64,000 bases of DNA from Flavobacteriaceae bacterium (lineage in GTDB: Bacteria; Bacteroidota; Bacteroidia; Flavobacteriales; Flavobacteriaceae). Each line of letters opens with the position of its first letter. Position 1 is the first letter of the stretch. A program made the translations under genes and the position numbers. The notes under the pieces were generated by a model. It saw only the letters and a program-made list of their open reading frames with translations, was not told where the DNA came from and did no database searches. Below are positions 429-18,234 of the stretch, one piece after another. Where the stretch lies: contig JABAYY010000097.1 in the NCBI GenBank assembly GCA_018608765.1, positions 1 through 64,000 on the forward strand. The letters are read 5' to 3'.

Positions 429-2132
429 ATGGAATTTATAAATGTACCGGATCAATTGAAATTATTTTTTAGAGTTTTATGCGTATTTGGTGTTTTTAGT
501 TTTAGTACTGCACAAGAACTTCAATTAAAAATTATCAGTTCAGATTCCATTGAAACAGATCTGATTAAATCCATAGGCTACTCTAAAACCTTTGAAAACT
601 TCGACGCCTTGCAAACTGAAGTCGCTCTTTTTAAGAAACAGCTGTATCAACGTGGTTATATTGAAACTCAAATTCTTAATATTTCACAAACCCCTCCTTT
701 AATAGTTGCTCAACTTTCACTTGGCAATAAATATGATTCCATAAGACTCTATGCCGATAAAACCATTTTTGAGTTTTTAGAATTAGAAGGCGTTAAAAAT
801 CTCAAAAGCAGTCCTTATTATATAATAGAAATCGCAGCACTAGAAACCCTCCTAAATTCACTCACTGAATTTTTAACCGCAAAAAGCTACCCCTTTGCTT
901 CCATTGCATTAAAAAAGATCACACCTATTGACAAGTCAACACTCAAAGCAAACTTGGTCGTAGAAACTAAGAAAGCACGACAACTACAATCTGTGGAAAT
1001 TAAAGGTTATGAGAAATTCCCGCGATCGTTTATAAAGCATTATTTGGGTATAAAAAAAAACACGCCATTTGACCTCAAGGCAATTCAAACTAAAACGAAA
1101 GCGATGGATCAACTTAGGTTTGCCAGACAGCTTCGTCCTGCAGAAGTGTTGTTTACTCAAGATACAACACGAGTTTATTTGTATTTAGAAAAAATAAAAA
1201 GCAATCGTTTTGATGGGTTTATTGGGTTTGGTTCGGATGAAAGCACTGGAGCACTAGATATAAATGGCTACCTCAACCTAAATTTGATTAATAATTTAAA
1301 TTTCGGAGAAGCGTTTCGACTTAACTATAGGAGTGATGAAAATGATCTAAAAACATTTGAGACGCAACTCACACTTCCTTACTTATTTAAAACTCCAATT
1401 GGAAGTGAACTCGAACTAAATATTTTCAAAAAAGATAGCACATTCACAACCGCCGAGCAAGCCGCTAGAGTGTTTTATCAGATTAATCCAAAGCAAAAAG
1501 TTTTTTTAGGAATTCGATCGACGCAATCAAATGCTTTACAATCAGAAACGATCAGCGATGTACGCAACTATAAAACGAGTGCTTATGAGCTCAAATACAC
1601 CTACCAACAGCTAACGACTCAAAATTCACTATTTCCTATTACAAGTGAATTAGAGCTTCGATTGTCTAAATCCAATCGAAAAACTATGAGCACAAAAACG
1701 AATCAAACACTATATTTCCTAAAAGCGTCTAAAATATTTAACCTGAATCGGAAGAATAGTTTTCACATACTACTGCAGGTGCAGGGAATTGATTCAGACA
1801 CCTACTTAGAAAATGAACTCATCCGATTTGGAGGGATTAATTCCATAAGAGGGTTTGAAGAAAACAGCATAAATACCACAGGACTAGGGGTTTTAGTTAC
1901 GGAATACCGCTACCAACTAGGTCCTACTCTTTATGTGCACTCTATTATTGATGCGGGATATTTTGACACCCCCTCTCAATCGAACCAAAAACTATATGGA
2001 TTTGGATTTGGATTTGGGCTTCTAACAGATGCAGGCCTCTTAAAATTCAATTTAGCAAATGGACAAACAGAGAATCAGAACTTCAGATTCTCAGATTCTA
2101 AAATCCACTTAAGCTTGAGAACTACTTTCTAA
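429..2132 (+). CDS. Outer-membrane protein of the BamA/TamA (Omp85) surface-antigen type
   Basis: Signal peptide (FSFSTAQ), POTRA-like segments, 'FGGINSIRGFEENS' barrel motif, C-terminal aromatic residue (LRTTF). Confidence 0.75.
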   Translation: MEFINVPDQLKLFFRVLCVFGVFSFSTAQELQLKIISSDSIETDLIKSIGYSKTFENFDALQTEVALFKKQLYQRGYIETQILNISQTPPLIVAQLSLGNKYDSIRLYADKTIFEFLELEGVKNLKSSPYYIIEIAALETLLNSLTEFLTAKSYPFASIALKKITPIDKSTLKANLVVETKKARQLQSVEIKGYEKFPRSFIKHYLGIKKNTPFDLKAIQTKTKAMDQLRFARQLRPAEVLFTQDTTRVYLYLEKIKSNRFDGFIGFGSDESTGALDINGYLNLNLINNLNFGEAFRLNYRSDENDLKTFETQLTLPYLFKTPIGSELELNIFKKDSTFTTAEQAARVFYQINPKQKVFLGIRSTQSNALQSETISDVRNYKTSAYELKYTYQQLTTQNSLFPITSELELRLSKSNRKTMSTKTNQTLYFLKASKIFNLNRKNSFHILLQVQGIDSDTYLENELIRFGGINSIRGFEENSINTTGLGVLVTEYRYQLGPTLYVHSIIDAGYFDTPSQSNQKLYGFGFGFGLLTDAGLLKFNLANGQTENQNFRFSDSKIHLSLRTTF

Positions 2133-2389
2133 AAAGGTGATTAATTAATTTTGTTAAAATAGTAATAAAAAACAACTTAAATTAATGGTATTTTGCAATT
2201 ATTAATAATTTATTTTTAAACCTTAAAAATAAATTATACTCAAATTAAGAGCTAAAAAACAGGTTGTTTTTGAGAAAATAAAAATTTAAATCTAGTTTCG
2301 TTTTAGATAATTAAAATTTTGTTAAACAAAATTTAGGATTTTAACACTTTAATCATCAATTTTGTGATATGAAAATAAACACAAACAAA

Positions 2390-5300
2390 ATGAAAACAAA
2401 ATGTAATGTGATGCTCTCGCTACTATTGGCGTTTGTAATTCAAATTTCTTTTGCACAGCAAAAGGATGTTTCAGGAACAGTTACTGATAGTGACGGAATG
2501 CCTTTAATAGGTGCTACGGTCGTTATCACAGGGACTTCCTCAGGAACAACAACAGATTTTGATGGTAAATTTAGTATCAGCTCTTCAGTTGGTGACACTT
2601 TAACATTCAGCTATCTAGGTTATGCCGACCAAGTTGTAACAGTTGATGCTACAAGCAGTATGACTGTTGTCATGCTAGAGGACGACTCTCAACTAGATGA
2701 GGTTGTTGTCACGGCTCTTGGTATTTCAAGAGACAAAAAATCGATTGGTTATGCCTCACAACAAGTTAGTGGAGACGCAGTATCTACAGTAAAAGTAGAC
2801 AACATTGCTAGCTCACTTTCTGGAAAAGTAAGTGGAGTACAAATCAAAACAAACAATAACTTTGGAGGGTCTGCGAACTTTCTAATTAGAGGGGTTAGTT
2901 CCTTAACAGGAAACAATCAGCCATTGTTTGTTGTAGATGGAATTCCAGTTTCTAACAACATCAACAATTCGTCACAACAACAAGGCGGTCGTAAAGGGTA
3001 TGATTATGGAAATGCTGCGATGGATATCAATCCAGATGACGTAGAGTCTATTAACATCCTTAAAGGTGCAGCTGCATCTGCAATTTACGGTTCACGTGGT
3101 GCCAATGGAGTTGTAATTGTTACAACTAAAAAAGGTGGACAAGGAAAAACTAAAGTTACTGTAACTTCTAGTGCACAGATTGGTTCTATTGATAAGAGTA
3201 CTTTTATTAAGTATCAAGATCAGTATGGAGCAGGATATGGTACTTATTATGGTTCAACAGGCTATTTCGAAGATTGGGACATGACTGGTGACGGAAATGA
3301 CAACTTAGTTGTACCAACTTATGATGATGCTTCTTTTGGGGCGCCATTAGACGGTCAGTTAGTTTACCAATGGGATTCTTTTGTTCCTGAACACAGAAAC
3401 TTTGGAGTTGCAACTCCTTACGTTGCTGGACAAACGACTCCGGTAGATTTTTTCGAAACAGCAACTCAATTTAACAATTCAGTTAGTATTTCTGGTGGAG
3501 ACGACAAAACAAGTTATAGATTAGGATATACCAATACTGAAATTAATGGGTATATGCCAAACTCTAAATTAAACAAAAACAGTTTAAACTTTAGCGGAAC
3601 ATTAAAAGTGAATGATAAAATCACTGTTGGTTCTTCTGCTAACTATTTAGTTCAGCAAACTGTCGGAAGAAATTCTACAGGATATGGTGATAACTTAATG
3701 GCACAATTCAGACAATGGTGGCAAGTAAATGTTGATCTTAAAGATCAAGAAGACATCTTTAACAAGACTGGTAAAAACTATTCTTGGAACAACGAAGGAG
3801 CGCTTACTGGACCTGGTTCTGGTGGAGAACTTATTGGACACTACTGGGATAACCCATACTGGACACGTTACAAAAACTTCCAATCAGATGAAAGAAATCG
3901 TTTCTTTGGAAATGTTTTTGCAACACTTGAAATTAACGACTGGTTAAGCGTAACTGCTAAAGGAGCTGTTGATACCTATAATGAATTAAGAGAAGAACGT
4001 AGAGCTATTGGTTCTGTGGCAACTCAATTTGGTATTTTAGGAGACGATGAAGGATCTGGATACGATAGAGTAGACATCCTTTTCTCTGAATATAATTATG
4101 ATTTAATGTTCAACGTGAACAAGCAATTAACTGCCGACATTAGTTTAGACGGAGTATTTGGAATTAATGTAAGAAAAGAAAGCTATAGCTACTTAAGAAA
4201 TTCTACAGCTGGTGGTTTAGCAATTCCTAACATTTTTGCACTTTCTAACTCTTTAAGTTCAAATCCTAAACCGATTGAAAGTTTAAGAGAGAAGCAAGTG
4301 AACGGATACTATGCACAAGCATCTTTAGGATATAAAAACATCTTGTATTTAGACCTTACGGACCGTATCGATGTGTCTTCAGCACTACCTTCTGAAAACA
4401 ATAGCTATAACTATTATGCAGCAAGTTCAAGTTTAATATTCTCTAAATTAGTGGATTTTGAATGGTTAAACTTTGGTAAGTTAAGAGCTGGATATGCAGA
4501 AGTAGGTAATGATTTACCAGCTGGAAACGTATTTGACACTTATTCTACTTTGAATAACTTTGGGAATGCTAGTTTATTCTCTTACGGATCTACAAAAAAC
4601 AACGCAAGTTTAAAGCCAGAAAGAACAAAAGAAATTGAAGTTGGTTTAGAAGCTAAAATGTTTAACAATGCGGTTGGATTTGACTTTTCTTGGTACAAGA
4701 AAAACACTGAAGATCAATTGATGCCTGCAGCAGTAACAACTTCTACTGGGTTTTCAAACAGATGGGTAAATGCTGGTGAGATCCAAAATAAAGGAGTTGA
4801 ATTAGGTATTTATGCAACACCATTTAAAAACGAAAACTTTAGCTGGGACTTAAGTGTAAACTGGGCTAAAAATGAAAGTTTAGTAGTTGATTTATATGGA
4901 GACCAAGAAAACTTACAATTAAATAGTTTTCAAGGTGGAATTTCTATAAATGCGACCGTTGGTCAACCTTACGGAACTATTAGAGGAACAGGGTTTAACA
5001 TGCATGAAAATGGTCAAAGAATAGTAAATTCTAGTGGTTATTATGAAGCAGTTGCCGATCAAATCATTGGGGATGTAAATCCAGAATGGAATGGAGGTAT
5101 TACAAATACGTTCAAGTATAAGGATTTCAAATTATCTTTCTTAATTGACATTCAAAAAGGTGGTGATGTATATTCTTTAGATATGCATTACGGACAAGGA
5201 ACTGGATTGCCTGACTTCACGACAGGAACTAATGACCTTGGAAACCCAATTAGAAACACACTCGCAAATGGTGGTGGGGTTATTCTTCCTGGTGTAACTG

Positions 5301-5647
5301 CTGATGGAGCTCCAAACACAACTAGAGCAAGAACAGATTATTATGCTGGAATTTGGTACTGGGGTAACTCATCAAGAAATCCAGCTGAACTGACTGTATA
5401 CGACGCATCTTACATCAAATTGAGAGAATTAACGCTAAGTTATGACCTTCCAGTTAGTAAGTGGACGAAAGGCTCAATTTCTGGTGGTAGCTTAACGCTA
5501 ATCGGAAGAAACCTTTGGATTATTGATAAAAATGTTCCTTTTGCAGATCCAGAATCTGGTTTAGGAGCTGGAAACGCTCAAGGATACCTTTCAGGATCTT
5601 TCCCTACTCTAAGAACAGTAGGACTTAATTTAAACTTAGAATTTTAA
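2390..5647 (+). CDS. SusC/RagA family TonB-linked outer membrane protein (ORF opens at 2369; start at 2390 preferred)
   Basis: Signal peptide, carboxypeptidase-like regulatory domain (VSGTVTDSDGMPLIGATVVI), TonB box/plug (LDEVVVTALGISRDKKSIGYA), plug motif (ILKGAAASAIYGSRGANGVVIVTTKKG), C-terminal F. MKTK start aligns with the other two SusC genes. Confidence 0.95.
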   Translation: MKTKCNVMLSLLLAFVIQISFAQQKDVSGTVTDSDGMPLIGATVVITGTSSGTTTDFDGKFSISSSVGDTLTFSYLGYADQVVTVDATSSMTVVMLEDDSQLDEVVVTALGISRDKKSIGYASQQVSGDAVSTVKVDNIASSLSGKVSGVQIKTNNNFGGSANFLIRGVSSLTGNNQPLFVVDGIPVSNNINNSSQQQGGRKGYDYGNAAMDINPDDVESINILKGAAASAIYGSRGANGVVIVTTKKGGQGKTKVTVTSSAQIGSIDKSTFIKYQDQYGAGYGTYYGSTGYFEDWDMTGDGNDNLVVPTYDDASFGAPLDGQLVYQWDSFVPEHRNFGVATPYVAGQTTPVDFFETATQFNNSVSISGGDDKTSYRLGYTNTEINGYMPNSKLNKNSLNFSGTLKVNDKITVGSSANYLVQQTVGRNSTGYGDNLMAQFRQWWQVNVDLKDQEDIFNKTGKNYSWNNEGALTGPGSGGELIGHYWDNPYWTRYKNFQSDERNRFFGNVFATLEINDWLSVTAKGAVDTYNELREERRAIGSVATQFGILGDDEGSGYDRVDILFSEYNYDLMFNVNKQLTADISLDGVFGINVRKESYSYLRNSTAGGLAIPNIFALSNSLSSNPKPIESLREKQVNGYYAQASLGYKNILYLDLTDRIDVSSALPSENNSYNYYAASSSLIFSKLVDFEWLNFGKLRAGYAEVGNDLPAGNVFDTYSTLNNFGNASLFSYGSTKNNASLKPERTKEIEVGLEAKMFNNAVGFDFSWYKKNTEDQLMPAAVTTSTGFSNRWVNAGEIQNKGVELGIYATPFKNENFSWDLSVNWAKNESLVVDLYGDQENLQLNSFQGGISINATVGQPYGTIRGTGFNMHENGQRIVNSSGYYEAVADQIIGDVNPEWNGGITNTFKYKDFKLSFLIDIQKGGDVYSLDMHYGQGTGLPDFTTGTNDLGNPIRNTLANGGGVILPGVTADGAPNTTRARTDYYAGIWYWGNSSRNPAELTVYDASYIKLRELTLSYDLPVSKWTKGSISGGSLTLIGRNLWIIDKNVPFADPESGLGAGNAQGYLSGSFPTLRTVGLNLNLEF

Positions 5648-5658
5648 CAATATAAAAG

Positions 5659-7083
5659 ATGAGAAAAATGAAAAATTACTTATTAAGCTTATTGTGTGTT
5701 ACTTTCGTCCTTACTTCATGTGGAGTTGATGAGAGTTTAAATGTGGACCAGAAAAACCCAAGCGAAGTACCAGCTGGGGGTCTATTCACAAATGCTTTGA
5801 AAAACCTGGGAGATCGAATGAACTCCTGTAGTGTTAATGAAAATGTCTTTAGACTATATGCACAATACTGGGCGCAAACAACGTATCCAGATGAAAGCCA
5901 ATACAATCAAGTTACAAGAAATATTGGTGGAAACCTATGGACAACAATGTACCGGGATGTCCTTAAAGATTTGAAAGGTGCTAAAGAGCTAGTAGAAAAT
6001 GGAGAAGCTCCAAGTCAAGCTCAATTAGCAATCATCAAGTTTATGGAAGTATATGCTTTCTCTATATTGGTTGACACTTTTGGTGACGTTCCTTTTACAG
6101 AAGCTTTAGATCCATTAAACCCATCTCCTATGTATGATGATGCTGAAACTATTTATACTTCATTAGCATCTCATTTAGATGAGGCTATTGCAGACTTAAG
6201 TAGTGGAGCTGGATTTGACGCAAGTCAAGACATCGCTTACGGAGGAAACGTTTCGCAATGGAGACAAGCTGCTGTTTCTTTAAAATTAAGAATGGCAATG
6301 CGATTAGCGGATTCTAATCCATCAGCTTCACAAACAATGGCAGAAGCTGCATTTTTAGCAGGACCTATCGTTGCTAATGCTGATAATTTTGGAATTAACT
6401 ATTTAGCATCTGCTCCAAACACAAATCCTTTATGGGTTTCTCTTGTTCAGAGTGGACGTAACGATTTCGTTGCTGCAAATACGTTAGTAGACGCAATGAA
6501 TCCTACAAATGATCCTAGACTTGGATCGTTCTTTAGAATGTACGAAGGTGCATATGTAGGTGGAGATTATGGGAATGCAAATGGAGCAGGAAGCAATTCA
6601 AATATATCTGACTTAATGAAGTCACCAGATTTAAAAGGAGATTTGATTACAGCAGCTGAAGTACACTTTTTATTATCAGAAGCTGCTGCTAGAGGTTACT
6701 CTGTAGGAGGAACTGAAGAAGCATACTACAACTCAGCTATTGAAGTTTCTATGGATGAATGGGGAGTAAGTTCTTCGGATACTGCTGCTTATTTAGCTTT
6801 AACAGAAGTTGCATACGCAACAGCTGCTGGAGACTGGAAACAAAAAATTGGATCTCAGAAATGGATTGCAATGTTTAACAATGGTTATGAAGGATGGACT
6901 GCATGGAGGTTATTAGACTTAGGTTTAAATGGCCCTGTAGTTGACGGAATAACATTAGATATCCCTACAAGATTCCTTTACCCTACTTCTGAAGCAACCT
7001 TAAATGGTTCTCAGTATGACAGTGCAGCTTCAGCTATTGGAGGTGACACAAAAACAACTAAAATATTCTGGGACGTTAATTAA
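5659..7083 (+). CDS. SusD/RagB family nutrient-binding outer membrane lipoprotein
   Basis: Lipobox (FVLTSC), directly downstream of SusC, SusD-like helical sequence including 'EVHFLLSEAAARGY' and 'KWIAMFNNGYEGWTAWR'. Confidence 0.9.
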   Translation: MRKMKNYLLSLLCVTFVLTSCGVDESLNVDQKNPSEVPAGGLFTNALKNLGDRMNSCSVNENVFRLYAQYWAQTTYPDESQYNQVTRNIGGNLWTTMYRDVLKDLKGAKELVENGEAPSQAQLAIIKFMEVYAFSILVDTFGDVPFTEALDPLNPSPMYDDAETIYTSLASHLDEAIADLSSGAGFDASQDIAYGGNVSQWRQAAVSLKLRMAMRLADSNPSASQTMAEAAFLAGPIVANADNFGINYLASAPNTNPLWVSLVQSGRNDFVAANTLVDAMNPTNDPRLGSFFRMYEGAYVGGDYGNANGAGSNSNISDLMKSPDLKGDLITAAEVHFLLSEAAARGYSVGGTEEAYYNSAIEVSMDEWGVSSSDTAAYLALTEVAYATAAGDWKQKIGSQKWIAMFNNGYEGWTAWRLLDLGLNGPVVDGITLDIPTRFLYPTSEATLNGSQYDSAASAIGGDTKTTKIFWDVN

Positions 7084-7376: not shown

Positions 7377-8710
7377 ATGAAAACCAAATTTACAATGATC
7401 TTAACGCTTTTTATGGCGTTAATTGTGCAATTAACCTTTGCACAGCAGAAAACAGTTACAGGAACGGTTTCAGATGAAAACGGCTTACCACTCATTGGCG
7501 CCACCGTTGTCATCTCAGGAACATCATCTGGAACCACTACCGATTTTGATGGCAACTACAAAATTAATGTCAACACAGGCGATGTGTTAAACTTTAGTTA
7601 TGTAGGCTACAAAAGCAAAGTGGCTACCGTAGGGGTATCTAATACGATTAACCTAGCACTCGAACTCGACAACACTTTGGATGAGGTAGTTGTGACAGCC
7701 TTGGGTATTAAACGAGAAGAGAAAGCTCTTGGATACGCTACTCAAAACTTAACATCTGAAAGTCTTACCACTGTTAGAGATGGCAACATCGTGAATGCTT
7801 TAAGTGGTAAAATTGCTGGAGTTAGTATTACTAATTCTTCTGGAGCAGTAGGATCCGATAGTAGAATTGTAATTAGAGGAATTTCCACTATATCTGGTGG
7901 CACTCAACCTTTAATTGTGGTTGATGGTGTTGTAATGGATAACATTTCATACGGAGACTCAAATTCTGGCGGAGGAAATAGTACTCCTAATGGAATCGCC
8001 GATTTGAACCAAGACGATATTGAATCTATTAATGTTTTAAAAGGGGGTGCTGCATCAGCACTCTATGGAATGCGAGGATCCAATGGTGTACTTGTTGTCA
8101 CTACCAAATCAGGGCAGCAATCTACTAAGTTAGGCATCAATATTGCGTCAAGCGTGAGCTTTGAAAACGTCTATATTCTTCCTGATTATCAAAATTCATA
8201 CGGTCAAGGGTCTAGTTCAACATATTTTGAGTTTGTGGACGGAGTTACCGGTCATGGAGGAGTTGATGAAAGTTGGGGACCTGCTTTGGACTCTGGTCTA
8301 GAATTTATACAATGGATTGGGCAGGATCGTATAGCTATAATGTAGCTGGTGGAGCCCTAGAAGTGACTGTAAACTATTGTTCAGCAGATTTTGACCTTAT
8401 ACTTTATACGGCAGCAGGTAGTTACGTACAGTATATTCTTGGTACTGCTAGTTGTCCAGAAGAAGATCAGTTAAGTGGTCTTTCGGATGGTAGCTACTTC
8501 CTTGTAGTGGACCTTTATGACAACCCTTTCTCAACTTTAAACACTGGACAACCTATGCCAATCACACTTACTTTGAACCAAGAGCATTTCCCAGATACTG
8601 GAACAACAATCGTTCATGATGGCTATACCACAGACAGTAGCGGTGGACTTCAAGCAATTGCAACATTAGATGTTGTAGGAGGGTATAATTACACCATTAC
8701 GCCTTTGTAA
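7377..8710 (+). pseudogene. SusC/RagA N-terminal fragment joined out of frame to the C-terminal part of another secreted protein
   Basis: 7377-8310 encodes signal peptide, CarboxypepD-like domain and plug (to DESWGPALDSGLEFIQW), then stops at 8345. The other frame (8273-8710) continues with a PPC-like domain (YSYNVAGG...DFDLILY...DGSYFLVVDLYDNP). No beta-barrel region is present. Confidence 0.85.
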
Positions 8711-8731
8711 AATAAAATTATTTTTAATTCT

Positions 8732-8760
8732 AAAACCACCCAACAGGGTGGTTTTTTTTT
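8732..8760 (+). terminator. Rho-independent terminator after the SusC remnant
   Basis: aaaaccaccc-aaca-gggtggttttttttt. Confidence 0.85.
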
Positions 8761-8900
8761 ACAACTTAAGTAGAAAAAAACCCATAGAAACAACCAAATG
8801 TTAAGGTCAAGAGCAATTTTATGCTTAAAGCTTTAGTCTATAAAACTCTCAGACCTAGCCCCAACCCCACTAAATACATAAAAAAGAGAACCCTTTCTTA

Positions 8901-8922
8901 ACCACCCAAACAGGTGGCTTTT
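8901..8922 (+). terminator. Second, weaker terminator-like hairpin similar to the one at 8732
   Basis: accacc-caaaca-ggtgg-cttttat; near copy of the upstream stem. Confidence 0.45.
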
Positions 8923-9130
8923 ATGATTAAAAGATAAATCTAGAGAAATTTTGAACAAATAAAATTGAAGTTTAGTTTATAATAACAATAGTATAACTAA
9001 ACATAATCCACTAATATGACCACATATACCTTATAATGTTTAATTAATATTGAATATTTATAAACAAAATGTTGGATATTTGAGTTATAATCGTCACTTT
9101 TGCGATGACTAATTTAAATAAATAACAAAA

Positions 9131-12100
9131 ATGAAAACAAAGTTTAGTGGAATGCTAATGCTAATGTTAGCGTTAGTTGTGCAAATTTCATTTGCACAAG
9201 AAAAGAAAGTTTCAGGAAATGTTTCTGATAATAACGGACTACCATTACCTGGTGCAACTGTTGTTATAGATGGAACTACATCTGGAGTTTCAACTGATTT
9301 TGATGGTAATTATTCTATTAACGCTAAAGTTGGTGACGTACTAGCTTTTAGTTACATAGGATATGCTAACCAATCACAAACTGTTGGAGCAAGTAACACA
9401 ATTAATGTAGTTTTAGCTACAGATACTAACTTAGATGAAGTAGTAGTACAAGCTTTTAGAACAACTTCTAAAGCAACTTCTAACATTGCTTCGACTACGG
9501 TAACTGCTCAAACCATTGAGTCCAGACCAAATGCTTCTTTTGTTCAAACATTACAAGGACAAGTAGCAGGTCTAAACATTACAACTGGTAATGGACAACC
9601 TGGTGGAAACAGTCTAATTAACTTAAGAGGGGTCTCTTCTATTTCTGGTAACACAGAGCCATTATTTATTATTGATGGTGTACCAGTAGATGAAGATAAC
9701 TTTAGAAGTTTAAATCCAAATGATATTGCTTCATTATCTGTTCTTAAAGATGCAGGTGCAACAGCAATTTATGGTAACAGAGGGGCAAATGGTGTAATCA
9801 TCATTAATACCAAAGTTGGAGCGTATGAAACAGGTTTAAAAGTGACTTACAGTGGCTTAACAAGTTTCTCTAACTTACAAGGGAATGATTACAACCTAAT
9901 GAATTCTAGAGAGCAACTGCAATTAGAAAAAGATTTCGGTGCTGGATTTGGAGCAACACTTTCTGATGTTGAATTAGAAGAGCGTGCAACTCAAGTGAAC
10001 ACAGACTGGTTAGATGTATTCTTTGGAACTGGACTTACTCAGAGTCATAACCTAAGTTTATCTTCAGGAGGTAAAAACCTTAACTCATTTACATCTTTAG
10101 GATTTCAAGATCAAGAAGGTATTTTAAAAAGAGCGAGTACGTTAAAGCGTTTCAACTTTAGAAACAATATCAACGGGAAATCTAATAGTGGAAAATTCAG
10201 ATATAGCACTAACTTATCTTTGAACTACTCTGAAAACAATGAAGCTAACAGTATTGGCTCAGGAGCTATTAACAGAAACTTTGCACTTGGTGCTAACATG
10301 AGTGTACCATACATTTCTCCTAGCTCTTATATTTCTGGAGAGGGAAGTAACATTCCTGTGAATTTTGCAAACACACCTCTAATGTTATTAGACCGTTTGG
10401 AAACTTACACAAGACGTGAAGATGAAATTAAAGTAATTGCAAGTCTTAAAGCTAGTTATGATATTACTGACAACCTTACTTTTAACAGTAGATTTGGAGC
10501 GGATTTCACAGACGAACAATTATTAAGAGTAGAGGCTCCAACCTCTTTTAATGCTCAATTATTTGCTCAAGCAGGAAACGAAACTCCTGGGTTTTCAGTT
10601 CAAAACTCAAACAGATCTATCTTCCTAAACTTTAACAACTCATTAAGCTATACAAATACATTTGCTGAAAAACACAGTTTAGAAGTATCTCTATTTACAG
10701 AATACTTTAAAGCACACTGGAGAAGCTTTGGTGTAAGTCAAGAAGGTTTTGATCCAGCTACATTTTATCCTGGTGACGGTGCTGCTTTCGTAGATGACAA
10801 TGCTGCCAATGATAACTTTGTGGATACAGCTTCTGCAAATATTCAAAATGCAGGTTTATTCTCTTACTTTGCATATGCTGATTATGATTATGACAAAACT
10901 TACGGAGTTTCTGCTACTATTAGACGTGATGCTTCTTACCGTTTTGCTGACTCTAATAAATGGGGTACTTTCTGGTCTGTTTCTGGACGATGGAATGTTT
11001 CTAACGAAAGCTTCATGCAAAACTTAAGTTTTGTAAACAGCCTGAAACTTAGAGCTTCTTACGGTACTGCTGGTAACCAACGTATTGTTGATTCTGGTGG
11101 GTCATTTGCACCTTTTGGAGCGGCTGATTTAACTAGAGATCTATTCGTAACTGGTGGTCAATATGGTGGTGTCAACGGACTTTCATTTGGACAAATTGGA
11201 AACAATTTACTTAAATGGGAAACTGTTGTACAAGCGAACTTAGGTGTTGATTTTTCTTTATTCAACAGAGTACGTGGTAGTTTTGATGTATACAAAAAAA
11301 ATACTGAAGATTTATTCTTCCCAACTCCTATCTCTCCAGCACTTAACGGAGCTCAAACATCAATTAGTGCTAACGTAGGAGAAATACAAAACAGTGGTTT
11401 CGATTTAGAATTACACTATGATGTCTTAAAAGCTGCAAAGCAAGGAGGACTTAATGTAACATTGAATCTTGTTGGAAATTACAACAAACAAGAAGTAATC
11501 AGTCTAGGTTCTGGTGGAGATATTCCTTTCGGACTTAGAGTTGGAGGCGTACTTAGCGAAATCTATGCTGCACCATATGTGGGTGTGAATCCTGCAAACG
11601 GTAATATGTTATTCGAAGACATTAATGGAGATATTACTGAGAACTTAGTAGAATCTGATCAAAGAGCAACAGGACTAAATATTTATCCAGATTACCAAGG
11701 TAGTTTTGGTTTTGACGCAGACTTTAAAAATTTCTTCTTAACAACGCAGTTTAACTATGCTATTGGAGTAGATCGTTATGATTTTGATTACAACAACTTC
11801 ATGGATCCTAATTCTATTGGACAGTTCAGACACTCTAGAGATCTTTTAAATGCTTGGCAACAACCAGGTGACATTACAAATGTACCGTCACTTAATGCAT
11901 CTAACTACGCAGATCAAGGATTCTCAGACAGAGATTTAAGAGAAGCTGATTACTTAAGATTACGTTTTATCCAGTTCGGATACAACATTCCTAAAGTAAT
12001 TTTAGACAAAACAGGATTCTCATACATCCGTGCATTTGTTGGAGGTGAAAACTTAGTAACGTTTTCTAAATGGAGAGGATTTGATGCTGAAGGTACTGGA

Positions 12101-12163
12101 GCAGCTGGAAATGGATATCCAACACCAAAGACATTTTCTGTAGGACTTGAATTTGGATTTTAA
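9131..12163 (+). CDS. SusC/RagA family TonB-linked outer membrane protein
   Basis: Signal peptide MKTKFSGMLMLMLALVVQISFAQ, CarboxypepD-like domain, TonB box LDEVVVQAF, plug motif VLKDAGATAIYGNRGANGVIIINTK, C-terminal F. Confidence 0.95.
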   Translation: MKTKFSGMLMLMLALVVQISFAQEKKVSGNVSDNNGLPLPGATVVIDGTTSGVSTDFDGNYSINAKVGDVLAFSYIGYANQSQTVGASNTINVVLATDTNLDEVVVQAFRTTSKATSNIASTTVTAQTIESRPNASFVQTLQGQVAGLNITTGNGQPGGNSLINLRGVSSISGNTEPLFIIDGVPVDEDNFRSLNPNDIASLSVLKDAGATAIYGNRGANGVIIINTKVGAYETGLKVTYSGLTSFSNLQGNDYNLMNSREQLQLEKDFGAGFGATLSDVELEERATQVNTDWLDVFFGTGLTQSHNLSLSSGGKNLNSFTSLGFQDQEGILKRASTLKRFNFRNNINGKSNSGKFRYSTNLSLNYSENNEANSIGSGAINRNFALGANMSVPYISPSSYISGEGSNIPVNFANTPLMLLDRLETYTRREDEIKVIASLKASYDITDNLTFNSRFGADFTDEQLLRVEAPTSFNAQLFAQAGNETPGFSVQNSNRSIFLNFNNSLSYTNTFAEKHSLEVSLFTEYFKAHWRSFGVSQEGFDPATFYPGDGAAFVDDNAANDNFVDTASANIQNAGLFSYFAYADYDYDKTYGVSATIRRDASYRFADSNKWGTFWSVSGRWNVSNESFMQNLSFVNSLKLRASYGTAGNQRIVDSGGSFAPFGAADLTRDLFVTGGQYGGVNGLSFGQIGNNLLKWETVVQANLGVDFSLFNRVRGSFDVYKKNTEDLFFPTPISPALNGAQTSISANVGEIQNSGFDLELHYDVLKAAKQGGLNVTLNLVGNYNKQEVISLGSGGDIPFGLRVGGVLSEIYAAPYVGVNPANGNMLFEDINGDITENLVESDQRATGLNIYPDYQGSFGFDADFKNFFLTTQFNYAIGVDRYDFDYNNFMDPNSIGQFRHSRDLLNAWQQPGDITNVPSLNASNYADQGFSDRDLREADYLRLRFIQFGYNIPKVILDKTGFSYIRAFVGGENLVTFSKWRGFDAEGTGAAGNGYPTPKTFSVGLEFGF

Positions 12164-12188: not shown

Positions 12189-13661
12189 ATGAAAAATATA
12201 TTTAAATTCATTTATGCTTGTTTGATCTTATCAATCGTAAGCTGTAATGATGCCATCGAAATCGAACAACCGGGTCGATTGGGCGCAGAAAATGCCTTTC
12301 AAGATGTTTCAGACTTAAGAGCTGGTTTATTAGGTGCTTACAATTTCTTAGATACTACTAACGAAATTGGACTCACTGCAGCAATGACAGATGAAACTCA
12401 CAAAGGGAAAGACAATGGAGGTCAGAATAATGACGAACAGAACTTTAATGTAAACAGTTCTAACGGATATGTATCTGGCATATGGGGATCTAATTATGGT
12501 GCAATAGGAATGGCTAACAGAGTCATCCAAGCTGCGGCTTCAATTGATTCTTCAGAAGATCAAGCAGAATATGACAACATATTAGGACAAGCACATGCTA
12601 TTAGAGCATTTGCACATTTCCAAATACTTACATACTTCTCAGCTGACTATACAGATGATTCCGCACTAGCTGGATTGCTAGTAACAAGTCCTGCAGAAGA
12701 TATCTTCGAAGCAAGACCAAGAAGTACTAATGGTGAATTCTACACGGCAATCGGTGCTGATTTAGATATGGCAGCAGATTTAATCAATTCTTCTGAAGGT
12801 GTTACTTTTATGGGAGATGATTTTGTAACAGCACTAAGAGCGAGAATGGCTGCTTATAGAGGAGACTACGCAATGGCAGATACATATGCTGCATCTTTGT
12901 TATCCACTTACTCTATTGCAGACCAAACTGAATACTCAGCAATGTTTGAAGACAGTGATTTCACTGAAGTAATTTTTAGCCTCGAAAGATCTATTGGAGA
13001 TTCTTACGATGGTCAAGGAACTGCTGGTGGTGGATGGGCAGGAAGCTTATTTGCTTTTATCGATGCTAGTTCTAGTGGAGGTCCATTTATGGAAATGAGT
13101 CGTTCTGTTTTCAACATTTTAGATGGAACAGCTGATGTACGTTTGACAAGAAACTTAAACGTTGCAGAATCTAGTATAGATCCTACATACCAAACAAACG
13201 ATAACTCTATTAATGATGATGTATTATTAGTATTTAAGTATCCTGGTGGAACACAACCTCTTTTAAATGATCTAAAAGTATTTAGAGCTTCTGAAATGTT
13301 ATTCATTAGAGCTGAAGCTTCTGCTGATGCTGGAGATCTTACAGGCGCTGCAACATTTCTTAAAGAATTAAGAGATGCACGATATGGTGCTCCTCAAGCT
13401 CTACAGTCATTTAATACTCAAGAAGATGCATTTGGAGCTATTCTTGACGAAAGACGTTTAGAACTTTTATTTGAAGGTCACAGATGGGTAGACTTGAAGC
13501 GTTTAGGAAACAGAGGAGACAGAGCAATTGATAGAGATTCTAAAGAGTGTGAAAACTTAGCAGGATGTTCATTACAAAACTCTGACTATAGATTTACACT
13601 ACCTATTCCTTTAAGCGAAACAACTGCTAACAGTGGAGCTGTACAAAACAATGGCTATTAA
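12189..13661 (+). CDS. SusD/RagB family nutrient-binding outer membrane lipoprotein
   Basis: Lipobox (LSIVSC), C-terminal 'LDERRLELLFEGHRWVDLKRLG' typical of SusD/RagB. Confidence 0.95.
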   Translation: MKNIFKFIYACLILSIVSCNDAIEIEQPGRLGAENAFQDVSDLRAGLLGAYNFLDTTNEIGLTAAMTDETHKGKDNGGQNNDEQNFNVNSSNGYVSGIWGSNYGAIGMANRVIQAAASIDSSEDQAEYDNILGQAHAIRAFAHFQILTYFSADYTDDSALAGLLVTSPAEDIFEARPRSTNGEFYTAIGADLDMAADLINSSEGVTFMGDDFVTALRARMAAYRGDYAMADTYAASLLSTYSIADQTEYSAMFEDSDFTEVIFSLERSIGDSYDGQGTAGGGWAGSLFAFIDASSSGGPFMEMSRSVFNILDGTADVRLTRNLNVAESSIDPTYQTNDNSINDDVLLVFKYPGGTQPLLNDLKVFRASEMLFIRAEASADAGDLTGAATFLKELRDARYGAPQALQSFNTQEDAFGAILDERRLELLFEGHRWVDLKRLGNRGDRAIDRDSKECENLAGCSLQNSDYRFTLPIPLSETTANSGAVQNNGY

Positions 13662-17455: not shown

Positions 17456-17487
17456 GGTTAAATACTTTAAAATTGATGTGTAATGTG

Positions 17488-17495
17488 TACTTTTG
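17488..17495 (+). promoter_or_regulatory. -7 type box TACTTTTG immediately upstream of rlmB
   Basis: Matches TAnnTTTG; ATG of rlmB starts 4 nt after the box. Confidence 0.6.
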
Positions 17496-17499
17496 CGGC

Positions 17500-18234
17500 A
17501 TGGAGAAAGAAACCAAAATATACGGCCTTCGCGCCATCATTGAAGCCGTGGAAGCAGAAAATACCATAGACAAGGTTTTTTTACAAAAAGGACTCAGTGG
17601 CGAATTATATACAGAGTTGGAAAAACTGTTGCGGAAGCAAAATATCAACTTTTCGTATGTGCCTGTTGAAAAACTAAACCGTTTAACGCCTCATAACCAT
17701 CAAGGCGCAGTAGCCAATATGTCACCAATCGCATTTTACGATTTGGAAGAACTGATCAACGCTGTCAAAGAAACCAAAGAAAACCCATTGTTTCTCCTCC
17801 TCGATCAACTTAGTGATGTCCGTAATTTTGGAGCCATCATCAGAACTGCTGAATGTACTGGCGTGGATGGAATTATCATTCAAAAAAGTGGCGGAGCTCC
17901 CATAAATGGAGACACAGTTAAAACAAGTGCAGGTGCGGTATTTAATATTCCCATCTGTAAAGTGGACCACATCAAAGATGCCATGTTTTATTTACAGGCT
18001 TCCGACATAAAAGTCATTGCAGCCACCGAAAAAACAGACAATACAATTTACGATATCGATTTTAAACACGGATGTGCCATCATTATGGGTTCTGAAGACA
18101 GAGGAATTAACCCTTCTATTTTGAAATTGGTAGATGACAAAGCAAAACTCCCTATGTACGGCAGTATCGCCTCTTTAAATGTTTCTGTAGCATGTGGTGC
18201 TTTTCTTTATGAAGCCGTCAGACAACGCCTCTAA
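17500..18234 (+). CDS. rlmB: 23S rRNA (guanosine(2251)-2'-O)-methyltransferase, SpoU/TrmH family (ORF opens at 17473)
   Basis: MEKETKIYGLRAIIEAVEAE; SPOUT motifs 'LLDQLSDVRNFGAIIRTAECTGVDGIIIQ', 'IMGSEDRGINPSILKLVDDKAKLPMYGSIASLNVSVACGAFLYEA'. Confidence 0.92.
   Translation: MEKETKIYGLRAIIEAVEAENTIDKVFLQKGLSGELYTELEKLLRKQNINFSYVPVEKLNRLTPHNHQGAVANMSPIAFYDLEELINAVKETKENPLFLLLDQLSDVRNFGAIIRTAECTGVDGIIIQKSGGAPINGDTVKTSAGAVFNIPICKVDHIKDAMFYLQASDIKVIAATEKTDNTIYDIDFKHGCAIIMGSEDRGINPSILKLVDDKAKLPMYGSIASLNVSVACGAFLYEAVRQRL

Follow-up and report, generated by a model that had tools for sequence, protein, structure and literature searches.

Microhomology deletions and gene remnants are known in bacteria. 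Among the described systems closest to the locus analyzed here is the intergenic shufflon of region EE in Bacteroides fragilis, where alternative ragA/susC pairs are brought behind one promoter by inverted repeats that span the susC start (PMC5729914), and in a survey of PULs of North Sea Flavobacteriia, PULs without susCD were counted as incomplete subtypes (PMC6298971). Our literature searches returned no description of scars of the kind reported below. The window, by which we mean the whole stretch of 64,000 nucleotides that was analyzed (G000:C77:1-64000), comes from the MAG of a marine flavobacterium, of 2.07 Mb in 105 contigs (87% complete, 6.6% contaminated). Between the SusCD1 and SusCD2 operons it carries a short locus that is very probably the deletion scar of a SusC-SusD-LP1-LP2 uptake operon formerly situated there (Table 1). 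This interpretation draws on both halves of the scar, a syntenic intact relative, a word shared at the junction, and the finding that the missing genes occur nowhere else in the assembly. We take the remnant for a deletion scar of an ordinary kind and fairly recent date, within what may be a SusCD cassette-exchange slot.

Table 1. Features of the scar and its surroundings, in window coordinates.
Feature	Position	Strand	Remarks
BamA-like gene	429-2132		left border of the slot, beside rpsL in relatives; named by sequence resemblance
SusC1	2369..5647	+	intact, upstream; body 96% identical to G009 SusC1
SusD1	5659..7083	+	intact; borders the scar on the left, as in G009
SusC remnant	7377..8315	+	codons 1-313 of the lost operon's first gene, by profiles and orthologous position in G009
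Leader, aa 1-108	7377..7700	+	slot-type MKTKFTMILTLFMAL..., common to same-position SusCs of several species
Plug portion	7701..8315	+	closest to SusCs of other genera
Putative deletion junction	8309..8315	+	7-bp microhomology ACAATGG; parental words in G031 SusC and G016 LP2
LP2 C-terminal remnant	8309..8710	+	~130 codons of the operon's fourth gene; frame differs from that of the SusC remnant
Out-of-frame codons	8316..8345	+	9 codons, IGQDRIAIM, and stop TAG
Former operon's terminator-like hairpin	8732..8755	+	AAAACCACCC/GGGTGGTTTT and a T run
SusC2	9131..12163	+	intact; borders the scar on the right, as in G009 and G003
SusD2	12189..13661	+	intact, downstream
RNA methyltransferase-like gene (called rlmB)	17476..18234	+	right border of the slot; named by sequence resemblance

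The left half of the scar is an ORF (7377-8345, 322 aa) that follows SusC for 313 codons, up to ...DESWGPALDSGLEFIQW (...GLEFIQW), and then runs through exactly the nine foreign codons and the stop that a first-pass annotation had described. The signal peptide, CarboxypepD-like domain and plug recognized by that annotation are present; the domain and the TonB plug agree with our profile searches, in which the remnant scored 58.4 bits for the TIGR04057 SusC signature (cut-off 46.2), 59.5 bits (5e-16) for Pfam Plug, and 1e-17 for CarbopepD_reg_2. By these scores, the SusC identity of the remnant is not a matter of chance. With regard to membership of the SusC/RagA family, the plug and the SusC signature are present, the beta-barrel is missing, and the full-family TIGR04056 score of 278.6, from an alignment to profile positions 1-238 of 981, lies below the curated 368.25. 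Because it encodes no barrel, the remnant cannot transport. No SusD partner was found directly downstream of it or within the scar, and the Bacteroidetes-type motif TAnnTTTG was found upstream of SusC1 only, and not upstream of the remnant.

The right half, WAGSYSYNVAGGALEVTVNYCSADFD..., occupies 8318-8707 in another frame with its stop at 8710, consistent with the earlier description of a tail in a different frame (from about 8321 on) followed by a good terminator. This frame has an ATG at 8312, but has lost its signal peptide. In amino acids, the tail is 93% identical to a longer frame in G016, whose LP2 runs ~60 codons further beyond the junction, and 79% identical to a 293-aa lipoprotein in G009; judging by these identities, its kinship to both is not due to chance. 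The description of the tail as PPC-like could not be upheld, as no PPC model in Pfam matched the tail or its full-length homologue in G009; no other Pfam family matched the tail either, and the fold predicted for the LP2 C-terminus from an alignment of two sequences had a pLDDT of 33. A programmed frameshift joining the two halves was considered and rejected, as no sign supported it.

An intact counterpart is found in G009, a genome of the same genus that is closed in one contig and 99% complete. At its locus L029, the gene order is BamA-like gene, SusC1-SusD1, SusC3-SusD3-LP1-LP2, SusC2-SusD2, and the window matches this order gene for gene, except that 7377-8710 replaces the four-gene operon. 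The two halves correspond to SusC3 up to codon ~313 and to LP2 from codon ~160, with ~5.1 kb between them in G009. In other words, the window lacks the SusC barrel, SusD and LP1 in full, and LP2 up to codon ~160; a SusD-like_2 (PF12771) lipoprotein is among the G009 neighbours that are gone. Since the nearest relatives of the plug belong to other genera, the pre-deletion operon lacks an exact representative, and the length of ~5.1 kb is an estimate. The internal deletion of a third SusCD operon that had been proposed is thus strongly supported by the syntenic G009 operon, by the genes being absent elsewhere in the assembly, and by the microhomology junction, and the relative with an intact operon that had been suggested as a check exists, in that G009 holds its operon between the same two SusCD operons. 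The loss of the barrel, the SusD and the start of a lipoprotein was correctly anticipated, but the operon comprised four genes, with LP1 and LP2, rather than the three of a SusC-SusD-lipoprotein arrangement.

In the 87% complete assembly of G000, no orthologue of SusD3, LP1, the SusC3 barrel or the LP2 N-terminus was found elsewhere; the best SusD match to SusD3 is SusD1, at 34%, and the empty search for the LP2 N-terminus, which had no control genome alongside, is weak taken alone. These absences bear on the idea that the scar is an assembly artefact, either a MAG chimera or a strain collapse, and that the operon is really present in the genome. The window is MAG-derived, and a strain mixture behind the assembly is possible; the number of contigs, the level of contamination, and the SusC paralogues standing in tandem would all suit such an artefact. 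However, assembly k-mers are usually longer than the 7-bp word shared at the junction, where no long repeat was found either; the missing genes are nowhere in the assembly, and G003 carries a similar scar within a contig of 576 kb. We therefore consider an artefact highly unlikely.

The breakpoint had been put at 8311-8325 in the first-pass annotation, which gave the approximate position, while our own placement at 8309-8315 overlaps with that span without coinciding with it. At the junction, the window reads GAATTTATACAATGGATTGGGCAGG, the SusC of G031 reads GAATTTATACAATGGGATTC / GAATTTATACAATGGGATTCT, and the LP2 of G016 reads GATTTAACAATGGATTGGGC / GATTTAACAATGGATTGGGCAGG; the word common to both parents is ACAATGG. 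Because these parental sequences come from other species, we infer the 7-bp word from them, and regard it as well supported. In the mechanism that we propose, ACAATGG in SusC codons ~311-313 would pair with its counterpart around LP2 codon ~160, an event of the replication slippage or end-joining type would remove the sequence in between, and the 5' part of SusC would thereby join the 3' end of LP2 and its terminator out of frame. That there was a single event, as well as its exact length and molecular mechanism, is likewise something that we infer.

When its parts are compared separately, the remnant is a mosaic, and more than a shortened version of the G009 operon. Its first 108 aa are 90% identical to G009, whereas aa 109-314 are 61% identical to G009, 79% to G385 and 73% to G031. 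G009 and G006 have the plug in common (95%) and differ in the leader (67%). From ~8397 to ~9130, which covers the tail and the spacer, the window is mostly 90-100% identical at the DNA level to G016 (L030), with a drop at the start of SusC2, although G016 is distant within the genus (84% amino acid identity in GcvP) and the nearer G009 (93%) is more diverged in the tail. Such a pattern could be taken to mean that an LP2 tail and spacer from a G016-like donor replaced the operon by illegitimate recombination, making the locus a product of exchange and not of simple deletion. The first ~80 bp beside the junction, however, are only 70-85% identical to G016, so the junction was not made with a G016-like donor, and the 4.25-kb G016 contig (JAQWYU010000269.1, from a Flavobacteriaceae MAG) may be misbinned; we deem a replacement of this kind unlikely and prefer a deletion. 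Based on the leader/plug/tail mosaic and the G016-like 3' end, the operon was probably already recombinant before it was deleted. The G016-like stretch at 8397-9130 could itself represent either a recent exchange or the misbinning of the G016 contig.

The remnant is most likely non-functional and decaying, while a truncated product that still functions is possible, though unsupported. No stops or frameshifts have accumulated in the remnant, which would also suit retained function. In a neutral simulation, the probability that neither frame was interrupted was 0.10 at 5% divergence and 0.01 at 10%, so an unselected scar must be young relative to the species splits; under the deletion reading, both frames are still open because the scar is young. 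The truncated SusC might instead be a functional exported leader-plus-plug protein (e.g., one that acts as a decoy or that regulates TonB or SusD interactions), which became fixed in an ancestor and was maintained by selection, with G003 as a further-reduced descendant. Besides the open frames, this would accord with the situation in G003, where SusC leader codons 1-37 are joined in frame to the LP2 tail (L031 10759-11109) and SusCD1 is also missing: the same two genes are affected, the deletion contains that of the window, the 117-aa product keeps a signal peptide and is predicted to be exported, and the pairwise dN/dS of the tail is ~0.10. Pairwise values of this sort mix the time before and after a deletion, however, and here mostly reflect pre-deletion time; moreover, the G003 fusion is without a plug, so no common product has been kept, and the scars in G001 and G012 stop at other places. 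A selected truncated protein is therefore very unlikely in our view. The deletions in G003 and the window are likely independent, although, since the one contains the other, a shared older deletion remains conceivable.

G003 is one of three related species with other SusC-leader scars at this locus. In G001, a leader of ~96 aa runs out of frame into a different tail, and the next SusC is split into two frames, of 530 and 425 aa (L034:6502-10365). In G012, a leader of ~69 aa ends in stops and is followed by foreign fragments that include a sorting-domain-like tail; this stub (L041:16154-17999) adjoins a BamA-like gene that is also split into two frames. A 183-aa leader ORF in G007 runs into Ns and was therefore not counted as a scar. 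Outside the genus, a SusC of G021 (L033:6213-9317) is split into frames of 310 and 685 aa, by deletion, frameshift or sequencing error. Leader stubs made up 4 of 11 inside the slot versus about 4 of 115 elsewhere (p=0.002), a value that is indicative only, because the counts were made by hand, short frames were checked for contig ends only, and the slot was chosen after the stubs had been seen. Given that three related species carry similar leftovers, the gain and loss of uptake genes seems to have been repeated at this locus.

The position of the operon is shared well beyond the genus. We examined the plug-group SusCs of 20 non-genus genomes from 15 genera, namely those that matched best among 400 genomes of the family and the first set of relatives, and asked whether the operon is bordered by rpsL/rpsG or the BamA-like gene on one side and by rlmB/mgsA on the other; both flanks were present in 13 genomes, one flank in six, and neither in one. 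SusD and LP1 accompany the operon in every fetched stretch that reaches that far, and a relative of LP2 does so in most, but not all. Slot-type SusCs have leaders (aa 1-105) that are 75-90% identical (75-84% for the window against G004, G010, G006, G007 and G008), whereas their bodies are 28-47% identical for most pairs, with window/G009 (60%) and G010/G008 (70%) as exceptions. The leader dS lies below the gcvP dS for window/G009 (0.53 versus 0.77) and window/G010 (0.72 versus 1.10), and above it for window/G006 (2.07 versus 1.19) and window/G004 (0.84-1.12 versus 0.57). Leader and body are most cleanly decoupled in two cases: G006.1/G008.1, from genomes with 97% GcvP amino acid identity and a dS of 0.19, have a leader dS of 0.28 and bodies that are only 33% identical, and the two tandem SusCs of G004 (L095, reverse complement, positions 2238 and 7243) have a leader dS of 0.24 and bodies that are 31% identical.

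On the strength of these comparisons, we lean towards regarding the rpsL-rlmB slot of the genus as a cassette-exchange site, in which the leader (aa 1 to ~105) would stay fixed while the body, SusD and lipoproteins are swapped or deleted. Recombination near SusC codon 100-120 would exchange or delete cassettes behind the fixed leader; close species would end up with the same leader on unrelated transporters, and lost cassettes would leave leader scars. Leaders that are kept while bodies are exchanged or deleted would explain both the mosaic remnant and the other scars. The G006/G008 pair makes it possible to test how nutrient receptors are exchanged behind a constant leader in marine flavobacteria, a question of relevance to substrate range and possibly to receptor-directed phages. 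The single scar, in itself, is routine gene loss, of less weight than this wider pattern, and cautions against annotating 7377-8345 as a working SusC.

Compared with SusC/RagA TonB-linked proteins (TIGR04056/TIGR04057), the remnant is alike in its leader, CarboxypepD-like domain, plug and signature motif, and differs in having no beta-barrel. It resembles bacterial microhomology deletions in the 7-bp word at its junction and in the fused ends of an operon, and differs from them in that several species have leader scars at one slot. No inverted repeats turned up at the SusC starts of the window, its single inverted pair (31 nt, 77%) lying elsewhere, and no invertase was recognized on reading the ORF list of the window. 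In outcome, the locus resembles the B. fragilis shufflon, where alternative SusC/D-like pairs change places while the point near the susC start codon from which they are expressed stays fixed; here, however, the genes stand in tandem in a single orientation, and the differences lie between species and are not phases of one strain.
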